This document shows positions 57,292-60,334 of a stretch of DNA of 64,000 nucleotides, piece after piece (the first letter of the stretch is position 1; each line of letters starts with the position of its first letter). Both the position numbers and the translations under genes were made by a program. Source of the DNA: Amycolatopsis lexingtonensis (lineage in GTDB: Bacteria; Actinomycetota; Actinomycetes; Mycobacteriales; Pseudonocardiaceae); contig NZ_JADBEG010000001.1 of NCBI RefSeq assembly GCF_014873755.1, positions 498,501 to 562,500 on the forward strand, in the 5' to 3' direction. The notes under the pieces were generated by a model. That model was given only the letters and a program-made list of their open reading frames with translations, was not told the origin of the DNA and ran no database searches.

Positions 57292-58509
57292 ATGGCCGGG
57301 ACATTGTCGGCCTTCACGGTGCGAGGGTTCCGGGTGGTGTGGCTCGCCGGCCTGCTCTCGGTGGCCGGGGACCAGCTGGCGCGCGTCGCGTTGTCCATCC
57401 TCGTCTACCAGCGCACGGGTTCCGCGGCGCTGAGCGCGGCCACGTACGCGCTGTCGATGCTGCCCGCGCTCGTTTCGGGAGCGCTGCTGTCCTGGCTGGC
57501 CGACCGGTTGCCGCGGCGGCGCGTCATGGTGGTGTGCGACGTCGTCCGGGCGGCGCTGGTGGCGGTGATGGCCGTGCCCGCCACGCCGCTGCCGCTGATG
57601 GCCGCTCTGCTGGTGCTGGTCCAGCTCGCCGAAGCGCCGTTCTCCGCGGCGCAGGGCGCGGTGCTGCCGGAGCTGCTCGGCACCCGGTACGAAGCGGGCC
57701 AAGCGGTGCAGCAGGTCACCACGCAGCTGTGCCTGGTGCTGGGGTTCGCGGCGGCCGCGTTCGTGGTGACCGGCGTCGGGGCGCACACCGCATTGGCGAT
57801 CGACGCCGCTACCTTCGCCGTCTCCGCGCTGCTGATCCGCGCGGGGCTGGGCAGCCACCCGCCGCCGGGCGGCCGGTCCCGCCACGGGACGTCGTGGTGG
57901 CGGCAGGTCGCCGGGGGCGCGGTCGCCGTCAGCCGCGACCGGACGCTTGCGACGCTGGTGTGGCTGGGCTGGCTGGCGTTGTTCACGGTCGTCCCCGAAG
58001 GGCTAGCGGTGCCGTTCGCCAGGGAGATCGGCGCGAGCGGCGGCTGGATCGGCGTGCTGCTCGCCGCGGAACCGGCGGGTGCGGTGGCCGGCGCCATGCT
58101 GCTGCGGCTGGTCGCGCGCCGGGTGCGGGTGCGCGCGCTGGGCGTGCTCGCGGTCGGGACGTCGGCGCCGCTCGTGGCCTACTGGGCGCAGCCCGCGCTG
58201 GGTACGGCGCTGGCGCTGCTGTTCGTGTCCGGCGTCTGCTCGGCGTACCAGGTCACGGCGGGGGCGACGTTCGTCCAGCTGTCCCCGCCGCCGCTGCGGG
58301 GCCGGGCCCTCGGCTTCGCGCGGACGGGGATGATCGCCGGGCAGGGCCTCGGGATCGTGCTCGGCGGGGTGCTCGCGCAGCTGGCCGGCGCGGCGACGGC
58401 GATCGCCGTCGCGGGCACCGCGGGAGCGCTGGTCGCGCTCGCCGCGGCCGCCGCGTGGTCGCGCCGGCGGCCGGACGCGGTCTCGGCCGCGCTGCCCGCC
58501 GAAGCGTGA
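57292..58509 (+). CDS. MFS efflux-type transporter
   Basis: A 405-residue MFS permease of the enterobactin/macrolide-efflux-like group: FRVVWLAGLLSVAGDQLARVALSILVY in helix 1 (residues 14-40), SWLADRLPRRRVMVVCD in loop 2-3 and ALGFARTGMIAGQGLGIVLGG near helix 10. Its ATG follows a G-rich region. It ends 7 bp from the stop of the last hexapeptide gene on the opposite strand, so the tandem mini-gene transcript would run antisense into it. Export of a small molecule is likely; the substrate is unknown. Confidence 0.85.
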   Translation: MAGTLSAFTVRGFRVVWLAGLLSVAGDQLARVALSILVYQRTGSAALSAATYALSMLPALVSGALLSWLADRLPRRRVMVVCDVVRAALVAVMAVPATPLPLMAALLVLVQLAEAPFSAAQGAVLPELLGTRYEAGQAVQQVTTQLCLVLGFAAAAFVVTGVGAHTALAIDAATFAVSALLIRAGLGSHPPPGGRSRHGTSWWRQVAGGAVAVSRDRTLATLVWLGWLALFTVVPEGLAVPFAREIGASGGWIGVLLAAEPAGAVAGAMLLRLVARRVRVRALGVLAVGTSAPLVAYWAQPALGTALALLFVSGVCSAYQVTAGATFVQLSPPPLRGRALGFARTGMIAGQGLGIVLGGVLAQLAGAATAIAVAGTAGALVALAAAAAWSRRRPDAVSAALPAEA

Positions 58510-58516
58510 CGCGGGT

Positions 58517-58537
58517 TCACCAGCCTTTGTCGGTCAT
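58517..58537 (-). CDS. Hexapeptide mini-gene 6 (MTDKGW)
   Basis: ATG-Thr-Asp-Lys(AAA)-Gly-Trp-TGA after CAGGAGCACACG. Last copy; its stop is 7 bp from the convergent MFS stop. Confidence 0.6.
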   Translation of the reverse strand: MTDKGW

Positions 58538-58588
58538 CGTGTGCTCCTGTTCTCGGTGGCCAGGGGAACGGGGGTGGGGTGTGCGGGG

Positions 58589-58609
58589 TCACCAGCCTTT
58601 GTCGTGCAT
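58589..58609 (-). CDS. Hexapeptide mini-gene 5 (MHDKGW)
   Basis: ATG-His-Asp-Lys(AAA)-Gly-Trp-TGA after CAGGAGCACGCC. Peptide identical to copy 3. Confidence 0.6.
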   Translation of the reverse strand: MHDKGW

Positions 58610-58660
58610 GGCGTGCTCCTGTTGTCGGTGGCCGGGGGACGTGGGTACGGAGGTGGGGGT

Positions 58661-58681
58661 TCACCAGCCCTTGTCGCGCAT
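58661..58681 (-). CDS. Hexapeptide mini-gene 4 (MRDKGW)
   Basis: ATG-Arg-Asp-Lys(AAG)-Gly-Trp-TGA after AAGGAGCACGCA. Its Lys codon differs synonymously from most copies. Confidence 0.6.
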   Translation of the reverse strand: MRDKGW

Positions 58682-58729
58682 TGCGTGCTCCTTGTCGGTG
58701 GTGGCAGGCAGGGGGAGTGGTGGCGGGGT

Positions 58730-58750
58730 TCACCAGCCTTTGTCGTGCAT
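58730..58750 (-). CDS. Hexapeptide mini-gene 3 (MHDKGW)
   Basis: ATG-His-Asp-Lys(AAA)-Gly-Trp-TGA after CAGGAGCACGCC. Confidence 0.6.
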   Translation of the reverse strand: MHDKGW

Positions 58751-58801
58751 GGCGTGCTCCTGTTCTCGCTGGTCAGGGGAACGGGGGTGGAATGTACGGG
58801 G

Positions 58802-58822
58802 TTACCAGCCTTTGTCGGTCAT
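58802..58822 (-). CDS. Hexapeptide mini-gene 2 (MTDKGW)
   Basis: ATG-Thr-Asp-Lys(AAA)-Gly-Trp-TAA after AGAGGAGCGCACC. It is the only copy ending in TAA, a synonymous stop change. Confidence 0.6.
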   Translation of the reverse strand: MTDKGW

Positions 58823-58872
58823 GGTGCGCTCCTCTTCTCGATGTCCGCGGGAACGGGGGTGGTCGTGCCGGT

Positions 58873-58893
58873 TCACCAGCCCTTGTCGCTCAT
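58873..58893 (-). CDS. Hexapeptide mini-gene 1 (MSDKGW)
   Basis: First of six tandem 21-nt genes in transcription order. ATG-Ser-Asp-Lys(AAG)-Gly-Trp-TGA, preceded by GGAAAGGCGAG. See the array entry for the argument that the series is translated. Confidence 0.6.
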   Translation of the reverse strand: MSDKGW

Positions 58894-59056
58894 CGGCTCG
58901 CCTTTCCGTGCGGTTCGTCCGGTCCTGGATACTCGGAATCGTCCCAGCCGCCCGGTCGGGTCGCGCCGTGGGGAAACGGCTGACACCGGACCGCAACGCG
59001 ACTACCCTGGGCGAGCAGGTGTTCACCGGCGCGGAGCAGGGCGGGGAGGCGCTGCG

Positions 59057-60334
59057 ATGAGCGGAGACACGAGCGGTCCGGGGGATTGGGCACCACCGCG
59101 GTGGAAGCTGTGGTCGTTGCCCGGGCGGGTGCTGTTCTTCGTACTGGCGGTCGATCTGGCGGCGCTGGCCGTCCTCGTGGTGGCGGCGCGGGCGACGCCG
59201 GAACCCCAGCAGTGGGCGACGGCGGGCTGGCTCGCCGCGGCCGCGTTGCCGCACCTGCACGCCTCGCACCTGATCGAGCAACGGCGTCGTGACCGCTCCG
59301 GCTCGCCGTACGTCGACCTCTGCAGCGTCTGGATCTTCGCCGGGGTGCTCGCCCTGCCGCTGGTGCTGGAGCTGGCCCTGGTCGCGGTGATCTACGGCCA
59401 CCGCTGGCTGCTGGTCAACCGGTTCGACCCGGTCCGCCCGCCGCACCGCACGGTGTTCACCGCGGCCACGCTCGCACTGGCGGCGGCCGCCGCGGCCGCC
59501 GTGCTCCGGGCGACCGGCGCGCACGAGCACCTCCTGCACCTCGGCGACGGTGCCCGGCCCGGCTGGGCGGACCTCGCTGCCGTGGTCACCGCCGGCGCCG
59601 TGCAGTGGACCGTCAACACCGCGCTCGTCGGCGCGGTCATCGCCTGGACGGTCACCGTCGAGCACCCCCGCCGGCTGCTGGGCAGCGCCTCGGACAACCT
59701 CCTGGAAGTCAGCCAGCTGGCCCTCGGCGTGTTCGTCGCGCTCGCCCTGCTGTGGTGGCCGCCCGCGGCGCTGCTGATGATCATCCCGACGTTCGCGCTG
59801 CACCAGTGCGTCCAGCTCGACCAGCTCAAGATCGCCGCGCGCACCGACCAGCGCACCGGCCTGCTCAACGCGATCGCGTGGCACCAGCAGGCCGAGCGGG
59901 CGCTCCAGCGCGCCCGCACCACCGGCGGCCGGACCGGGGTGCTGATGATCGACCTCGACTGGTTCAAGCGCATCAACGACACCCACGGGCACCCGGTCGG
60001 CGACGACGTCCTCGCCGAGGTGGCCACCGTGCTCGCGAAGACCGTCCGGCGCGGGGACACTGTCGGGCGCTACGGCGGGGAAGAGTTCGCCGTCCTGCTG
60101 CCCGACGTCGACGAAGCCGAGATCCGCGCGGTCGCCGAGCGGATCCGCGTCCGGATCCGGGCGCTGCGCATCACCACGCCCACCGGGGAACCCGTCGCGC
60201 TGTCGGCGACCATCGGCGCGGCCCTGCACCCGGCCGTGGCCGAAGCGGGCCTGGAAGGGGTCATCCGCGCCGCCGACGAAGCCCTGTACGCGGGCAAGAA
60301 AGCGGGCCGCGACCGGGTGGCGCTCGCGGTGTAG
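59057..60334 (+). CDS. Membrane-bound diguanylate cyclase (GGDEF)
   Basis: A 425-residue protein with seven or eight hydrophobic segments over residues 20-255 (MASE-like sensor), then a GGDEF domain. DLDWFKRINDTHGHPVGDDVL is near 300 (residues 299-319), the active-site GGEEF near 340 with I-site RRGD just before it, so product inhibition is likely. It makes cyclic di-GMP, which controls development in actinomycetes. ATG at 59057 follows GGGGAGG. The divergent upstream region also serves the hexapeptide array. Confidence 0.92.
   Translation: MSGDTSGPGDWAPPRWKLWSLPGRVLFFVLAVDLAALAVLVVAARATPEPQQWATAGWLAAAALPHLHASHLIEQRRRDRSGSPYVDLCSVWIFAGVLALPLVLELALVAVIYGHRWLLVNRFDPVRPPHRTVFTAATLALAAAAAAAVLRATGAHEHLLHLGDGARPGWADLAAVVTAGAVQWTVNTALVGAVIAWTVTVEHPRRLLGSASDNLLEVSQLALGVFVALALLWWPPAALLMIIPTFALHQCVQLDQLKIAARTDQRTGLLNAIAWHQQAERALQRARTTGGRTGVLMIDLDWFKRINDTHGHPVGDDVLAEVATVLAKTVRRGDTVGRYGGEEFAVLLPDVDEAEIRAVAERIRVRIRALRITTPTGEPVALSATIGAALHPAVAEAGLEGVIRAADEALYAGKKAGRDRVALAV

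Follow-up and report, generated by a model that had tools for sequence, protein, structure and literature searches.

Tandem hexapeptide genes of Amycolatopsis lexingtonensis belong to a family of micropeptide genes lying beside membrane diguanylate cyclases

We analyzed a stretch of 64,000 nt from Amycolatopsis lexingtonensis (GCF_014873755.1, NZ_JADBEG010000001.1, positions 498,501-562,500), hereafter the window, in which six tiny genes had been proposed to encode hexapeptides in tandem. Sequence comparison confirms that these genes are real, and that they are members of a large family of genes for peptides of 6-8 residues located beside membrane diguanylate cyclases (DGCs). Across five actinobacterial families, distinguished by family code, genomes carry these ORFs together with membrane DGCs of this clade. 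Because the peptide genes stand back to back with the genes of membrane DGCs, a peptide-controlled form of c-di-GMP signalling is suggested. To our knowledge, the inputs sensed by the membrane DGCs of antibiotic-producing actinobacteria are mostly unknown, and a gene-encoded peptide beside many such DGCs would represent a directly testable candidate signal. The family apparently has not been described before, and conserved six-codon genes, in as many as 13 repeats, would have escaped notice in the genomes of several families. Titles and abstract openings, from a literature mostly outside subscription papers and preprints, gave no description of micropeptide-DGC loci, and a term search of the main text of PMC13417212 returned neither GGDEF nor diguanylate.

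The hexapeptide array and its neighbours

The array occupies positions 58517-58893 of the minus strand, which the original prediction left unspecified, and is read 5' to 3' from 58893 to 58517 (Table 1). It consists of six 21-nt ORFs of the pattern M-x-D-K-G-W, with start-to-start distances of 71, 72, 69, 72 and 72 bp; codon 2 is variable, and the Lys codon (AAA/AAG) and the stop codon (TGA/TAA) vary synonymously. The original prediction of six tandem genes is borne out, as GAYAARGGNTGGTRA matches six times in the window and never in 100 dinucleotide shuffles. Each gene had also been assigned its own Shine-Dalgarno (SD) box, which holds for the five that have AGGAG at -11 to -7, while micro-ORF 1 has the weaker GGAAAGG. 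Across the 10.74-Mb genome, ATGNNNGAYAARGGNTGGTRR retrieves those six micro-ORFs and no seventh, and no other ORF satisfies the Trp micro-ORF criteria on either strand of the 64-kb window. With the Trp filter dropped, five unrelated SD micro-ORFs appear elsewhere in the window, none of which (0/5) matches the consensus. A chance repeat was rejected on the basis of the shuffle controls, the background ORF rate and the window-wide scan. No Rfam match at gathering scores was found in the window, and a plasmid collection gave no match.

Concerning codon usage, the Lys codon is AAA in 26 of 48 scanned MxDKGW copies, whereas seven genes of the neighbourhood use AAA for 7 of 42 Lys codons. Of the 18 arrays, 15 have AAG in the first copy and 14 have AAA in the last, rows with a single copy being counted as both, a pattern that looks as if copies 1 and 2 had split before the species did.

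The two neighbours named in the original prediction, an MFS transporter and a c-di-GMP synthase, are indeed conserved partners across relatives. Since the array is convergent with the former and divergent from the latter, the next gene in its direction, that of the MFS transporter, lies on the other strand, with 7 nt between its stop codon and that of micro-ORF 6. The MFS protein has no relative in the PDB by sequence search at E≤0.001. The DGC combines a hydrophobic N-terminal half with a following GGDEF domain, and both the PF00990 domain and the GG(D/E)EF active site are present, with GGEEF at residue 340 and RxxD at residues 331-334, of which R331 and D334 are invariant among 56 aligned sequences. 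It resembles ordinary membrane members of PF00990 and TIGR00254, and catalytic activity is plausible, but it has a divergent micropeptide companion. In the intergenic region, 18 aligned loci share the conserved blocks GGTAGtCGCGT, TGTCAG and GGCTGnGAcnATTccggGtaTCC; a search for a shared promoter motif found blocks such as TGTCAG to recur.

Table 1. Coordinates, within the window, of the array and of the surrounding features
Feature	Coordinates	Strand	Basis
MFS transporter, 405 aa, convergent with the array	57292..58509	+	PF07690, E 1.6e-25
Micro-ORF 6, MTDKGW, last in transcription order	58517..58537	-	sequence
SD AGGAG, micro-ORF 6	58544..58548	-	sequence
Micro-ORF 5, MHDKGW	58589..58609	-	sequence
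SD AGGAG, micro-ORF 5	58616..58620	-	sequence
Micro-ORF 4, MRDKGW	58661..58681	-	sequence
SD AGGAG, micro-ORF 4	58688..58692	-	sequence
Micro-ORF 3, MHDKGW	58730..58750	-	sequence
SD AGGAG, micro-ORF 3	58757..58761	-	sequence
Micro-ORF 2, MTDKGW, stop TAA	58802..58822	-	sequence
SD AGGAG, micro-ORF 2	58829..58833	-	sequence
Micro-ORF 1, MSDKGW, first in transcription order	58873..58893	-	ATGAGCGACAAGGGCTGGTGA
Weak SD-like GGAAAGG, micro-ORF 1	58901..58907	-	sequence
Intergenic region from micro-ORF 1 to the DGC gene, presumed to hold both promoters	58894..59056	.	conserved blocks, 18 aligned loci
Membrane DGC, 425 aa, divergent from the array	59057..60334	+	PF00990, E 1.9e-43; TIGR00254 over cut-off

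Distribution of the micropeptide genes

Within the genus, ATGNNNGAYAARGGNTGGTRR matches 18 of 80 genomes, the matches being clustered, and a reversed control pattern matches none. All 18 arrays lie between orthologues of the window MFS and DGC genes and hold 1-6 copies per locus by exact patterns. Loss of frame, start or SD under a retained DNA repeat, which the original prediction had named as its refutation, was not what the loci read showed: spacers drift while start, frame, SD and peptide core are retained, with swaps between ATG and GTG and one copy reading MSDRGW. The DKGW core is unchanged across DGC identities of 65-97%, and as some orthologous loci keep one core, rapid peptide change is not general. 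The exception to this retention of start, frame and SD is found in G008, which together with G038 (DGCs ~80% identical) has a locus devoid of MFS and array: G008 keeps a lone decayed remnant that has lost its start, Asp codon and stop, its MFS gene is gone too, and the best MFS matches elsewhere in both genomes are weak. An exact-motif search of 390 genomes of the family gave 20 with a match, two of them beyond the 18. These two (G148 and G031) were rejected as array loci, their matches lying inside longer open frames, with no stop in G031; the reversed control pattern gave one match each in five of the 390 genomes.

In other genera, a two-copy pattern scan of 84,980 species genomes yielded 64 stretches, of which eight were Amycolatopsis loci already known and 15 were read, 11 of the latter having arrays that belong to the family and four not. 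These 11 records, from Saccharothrix and Umezawaea, have MRDKIW genes in tandem (2-4 copies), with boxes of the GGAGGTG type and with ATG, GTG or TTG as start codons, and carriers of MRDKIW comprise Saccharothrix, Umezawaea and Lentzea. The eleven MRDKIW arrays adjoin a DGC gene (44-55% identity over the parts available), with an MFS relative (~60%) beyond the array in ten of them. When stretches of 8-19 kb were compared (three query loci, twelve in the set), only MFS and DGC were common across genera. The intergenic regions of the MRDKIW loci (24 aligned) share a conserved imperfect palindrome, GTCAC-n-gtAat-n-GtGAc, and a GTCAG block that is common to the Amycolatopsis loci; these may possibly represent sites for a regulator.

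We then used the MFS transporter as an anchor: 390 genomes of the family were searched with the window protein, and 80 regions downstream of high-ranking hits were taken, a non-random set from the upper part of the hits listed, in which two regions represent one locus (G157). Five of the resulting 79 distinct loci have no DGC in the stretch, leaving 74 MFS-DGC gaps. At least one SD-preceded Trp micro-ORF is present on the array strand in 61 of the 74, and at least two copies in 39, as compared with 2/74 on the opposite strand and 0-2/74 in ten rounds of dinucleotide shuffling, never with two or more copies. Eleven of the gaps were already among the motif-scan stretches, and without those the count is 50/63. 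When no residue filter was applied, SD-preceded ORFs of 4-8 codons were found on the array strand in 61/74 gaps, on the opposite strand in 4/74 and in shuffles in 4-12. The encoded peptides include MRDKIW, MREKIW, MRGQNW, MRNNTWRRNNTWS, MSKDWN, MGKDWN, MRNRTWI, MRGKEWH, MRENTWRENTWK and MSDRDW, as well as MRNHNW in a gap with ten ORFs, one of them MPNHNW.

A reading of the 13 remaining gaps under relaxed criteria, applied after the strict count, showed short peptide ORFs in 12 and nothing in one. Four contain chains of 36-48 aa made of DSNWVR/RDAHW-like units, two contain fused SNNW chains, and six contain non-Trp hexapeptides (MRNRDN x2, MRNRET, MRDRGN x3, MRNRGG, MRNRDT and MRSIEF, the last belonging to the second of two DGC genes at its locus, L138). 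The 368 ORFs of the Trp scan start with ATG (269), GTG (97) or TTG (2) and stop with TGA (358), TAA (7) or TAG (3). Because the scan missed some copies with a weak SD, such as the first copies of L043 and L045, its copy counts are minima.

Using instead a pattern search of 394 genomes of the class, we obtained matches in three genomes of another family (f22), one of them by chance; Jiangella anatolica (G502) has eight MRDNNWN copies between MFS and DGC. A search with the Jiangella DGC gave 31 DGC matches, 30 with a locus, and arrays are present at 29 of these 30 loci in Jiangella and relatives, with an MFS relative in 25 of the 30 stretches. Their peptides include MRDNTWT, MRDTTWS (in an array of up to 13 ORFs), MRGNSWD, MRANSWD and MRDTNWVLRDTNWSW. 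On contig 29 of G615, two DGC paralogues lie ~2.2 kb apart, one (L271) with four MRDTNWVLRDTNWSW copies and the other (L278) with none. A search of 61 genomes of genus g71 (probably Streptomyces) with the Jiangella DGC, run without a positive control, found nothing at E≤1e-50.

The class-wide DGC search had matches in 30 of the 394 genomes and listed 16 further DGC loci besides those of f22 and the window DGC. Four are in the window's own genome and 12 in 11 other genomes, two of these 12 belonging to the window's family and the rest to f9, f19 and f34. An SD-preceded micro-ORF of at most 9 aa lies on the array strand at all 13 newly fetched loci and at 1/13 on the other strand, which also has a few longer chance ORFs. 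The window's own genome contributes MRNRES x6 to this set, and the other peptides are MRDVHWG, MRDTTWI, MLRGVTWI/T, MSSTQWG, MRHTSWS, MRSRDR and MFDRDF. The array strand holds no micro-ORF at three of the 16, all in the own genome (L188-L190), and none was found at L278 and L239. No MFS gene is present in the 2-kb stretches at the 13 further loci, nor in 11.5 kb around the G408 locus.

When regions of DGC paralogues were rescanned without the Trp filter, divergent SD micro-ORFs appeared at 15 of 20 and were lacking at 5, encoding MSNRDF, MNGRED, MRNRES x10, MSNRDT, MAGRDY, MAGRDF, MRDREA x3 and others; further GGDEF regions with an alignable DGC had one at 7 of 15. Trp was consequently rejected as an essential feature: it had been imposed by the scan filter, and sister loci encode MRNRES, MRDREA, MTNRDL, MSNRDF and MRDRGN. 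We also rejected 13 GGDEF loci without Trp micro-ORFs as negative controls, five of them carrying non-Trp hexapeptide ORFs, so that only the opposite strand, shuffled sequence and sequence from remote regions can serve as controls. The same criteria applied to background sequence gave 34 ORFs in 339,665 bp with both strands counted (0.05 per kb per strand), and of these one matches the consensus; given this rate, single-copy cases such as MCGRDN and MRGKDQ are less certain than arrays. The consensus of 89 distinct peptides of 6-8 aa is M, R (60/89), D/N/G, R/N/K, N/D/T, and W (59/89) or another residue, pooled counts that lean to Trp through the filter.

Elsewhere in the window's own genome, MRNRES x6 (L301, near 5.26 Mb) and MTNRDL/MRNRDL/MANRDL (L165, near 9.11 Mb) are each divergent from a DGC gene, and single MCGRDN and MRGKDQ ORFs accompany two more DGC genes. 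At two loci, L174 (G079) and L175 (G070), an SD-preceded MAASTA ORF lies upstream of the DGC gene on its own strand.

Selection on the peptides and their partners

Adjacent copies differ at 121 synonymous versus 50 nonsynonymous positions over 600 and 3,078 sites (249 pairs, 82 loci), a pN/pS of 0.08 computed on pairs of copies in related genomes, which are not independent events. For the core, taken as the four codons ending in Trp, the counts are 69 and 14 (253 pairs; ratio 0.03), and for ten non-Trp arrays 37 and 15 (29 pairs; pN/pS 0.13). Identity between adjacent copies (235 pairs) is 0.95 in the ORF and 0.68 in the 28 nt after the stop. Since adjacent copies differ mostly synonymously, the peptide itself is under selection, and the signature is that of a selected peptide and not of a DNA or RNA repeat.

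Concerning the partners, peptide genes are linked to a candidate sensor gene and each paralogue has a private peptide, as in pheromone-receptor cassettes, with the misses noted above: in the 13 genomes compared that have at least two modules, no peptide is common to two modules. Over 103 loci, peptide distance correlates with that of the DGC N-terminal half (0.61; partial rank correlation 0.36), of the GGDEF domain (0.53; partial 0.19) and of the C-terminal part of the MFS protein (0.48; partial 0.00), the partial values for the two DGC parts both exceeding 300 permutations (p 0.003). Distant pairs show no positive peptide-DGC correlation, and the N-terminal half simply evolves faster. The DGC is a steadier partner than the MFS transporter. 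As an obligatory partner the latter was rejected, being absent in 2 kb at 13 DGC loci and in 11.5 kb at G408. In L302 (G151, contig 56), an MFS relative is found with a 19-aa chain, MRNRGWTARNKSWRNKSWR, and no DGC in a 14-kb stretch. A protein of 652 aa (P0079) consists of the C-terminal half of such an MFS fused to a DGC, in the same order as in the locus.

Possible roles of the micropeptides

We give a probability of roughly 40% to the reading in which the array peptide serves the DGC encoded next to it as cognate ligand and is exported by the MFS transporter where one is present. The array would be a stand-alone transcription unit in which a peptide of six to eight residues is encoded 1-13 times, or as a chain of the same unit fused together, its copy number setting the peptide dose. 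The peptide, or a trimmed tetrapeptide (DKGW, DKIW, DNNW), would be exported, by the adjacent MFS where there is one, and as the dedicated partner of the divergently encoded DGC would bind its hydrophobic N-terminal half. Peptide level would then set c-di-GMP output in an autocrine or population-sensing circuit. We infer the ligand role, the export and the c-di-GMP output from linkage, and the argument is weakest where it passes from linkage to ligand. Several observations tell against this scheme: a hexapeptide has no known export signal, and MFS proteins usually move small molecules. Export by an MFS is not general, given its absence at 13 further DGC loci and near G408. Moreover, G008 and G038 retain the DGC but no peptide, and three DGC paralogues of the window's own genome and 5 of 20 paralogue regions lack a divergent micro-ORF.

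Short peptide genes beside cognate receptor genes, with private peptides per paralogous cassette, are known from Phr-Rap, PapR-PlcR and SHP-Rgg, where the pre-peptides are longer, carry secretion signals, and reach cytoplasmic receptors after import. The loci described here are similar in placing a peptide gene next to a candidate sensor gene, with private peptides for paralogues, but the ORF has only 6-8 codons and frequently forms arrays, with a membrane GGDEF enzyme as candidate receptor. More tentatively still, the arrays may encode a class-wide family of micropeptide pheromones, each of which would serve a single membrane DGC as its private ligand. If so, these would be among the shortest genetically encoded bacterial signals and would feed straight into c-di-GMP, through several parallel channels per genome, the window's own genome having as many as five candidate modules. 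Further cases may be sought by looking divergently from DGC genes.

Nearly as good a fit is provided by a peptide that stays inside the cell and acts on the cytoplasmic face or GGDEF domain of the neighbouring DGC as an inhibitor, activator or assembly factor, the MFS being a separate effector or itself regulated through that circuit. The peptides are hydrophilic and have no signal sequence, the DGC is the steadier partner, 13 further loci have no MFS in 2 kb, and DGC paralogues have different peptides. We nevertheless hold this to be possible rather than probable, since distances between peptides follow those of the membrane half more closely than those of GGDEF, the presence of up to 13 copies in an array points to a demand for high output, and an MFS relative is found, as an independent observation, in 25 of the 30 stretches anchored on the DGC in Jiangella and relatives (its presence at the 74 gaps being by construction). 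Of the roles originally envisaged, the secreted signal fits best. The mini-RiPP, in which M-R or M-x is a short leader and xxxW the core of a minimal precursor that receives its modification from an enzyme with a distant gene and leaves the cell through the MFS, with the DGC regulating production, appears unlikely to us. Its anatomy does recall the biarylitide gene bytA, a precursor gene of five codons plus stop that is paired with the P450 gene bytO; bytA is easily missed by annotation, and a short N-terminal part of its product is cut off a short core (PMC8708641). Adjacency to an MFS gene, units fused through R, RR, TL or VL, and a Bacillota locus (L072) pairing Cys-ending micro-ORFs with a PF02441 flavoprotein and an MFS gene are also compatible with it. 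However, the arrays differ from bytA in having 1-13 copies, a DGC and often an MFS as partners, and another core motif: the peptides follow M-x-[DNG]-[RKN]-x-[W or other], with 6-8 aa in most cases, and those listed have no Tyr-x-His of the MxYxH type. As originally stated, no P450 or radical SAM enzyme is adjacent: neither these, of the biarylitide and streptide types respectively, nor another maturase came up when 11 window proteins were scanned with Pfam (a part of the window ORFs, one probably a shadow frame), and only MFS and DGC are common across genera in the stretches compared. At the Trp position, N, T, G, S, F, L, Y, D, Q and A also occur, which is hard to reconcile with one side-chain chemistry, so that a mini-RiPP needs both a trans-acting enzyme and tolerance of many C-terminal residues.

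Far less probable is that translation itself is the function, through Trp attenuation, ribosome stalling or tRNA titration. TnaC and TrpL are short leader ORFs with a Trp codon and a strong SD, to which the very short ORFs studied here, with strong SDs, a terminal Trp codon in most Trp-filter copies and over-use of AAA at Lys (26/48 against 7/42), bear a likeness. They differ in that they are multicopy (up to 13), that no co-directional gene lies downstream in the window, the array ending 7 nt from the MFS stop, and that Trp is replaced in many sister loci. In addition, the whole core rather than the last codon is under selection, and a single ORF may contain several units (two or more) in fusion. 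The suggestion of a leader peptide sensing its Trp codon is therefore not upheld. Finally, we see hardly any room for a DNA or RNA repeat with incidental ORFs, be it a binding-site array, a regulatory RNA or an RNA antisense to the MFS 3' end. A tandem period often of 57-81 bp, and convergence with the MFS gene, whose transcript could overlap that of the array, would suit such an element, but the pN/pS of 0.08 and the drop in identity after the stop codon do not; frame, start and SD are kept across families despite unrelated nucleotide sequence, and the ORFs occur beside DGCs without an MFS. The lack of an Rfam match has no weight on either side.

The Bacillota locus mentioned above (Tumebacillus avium, L072:5881-8003) has six SD-preceded Cys-ending ORFs (MERNITFGDINIWIC, MRDPVYLC, MSYEPIFLC, MVVSDPIFLC, MVVTDPIFIC and MQDQVWVC), followed by the PF02441 flavoprotein and MFS genes. 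As PF02441 is a family which we take to hold the EpiD-type Cys decarboxylases, this locus is a strong candidate for a mini-RiPP.
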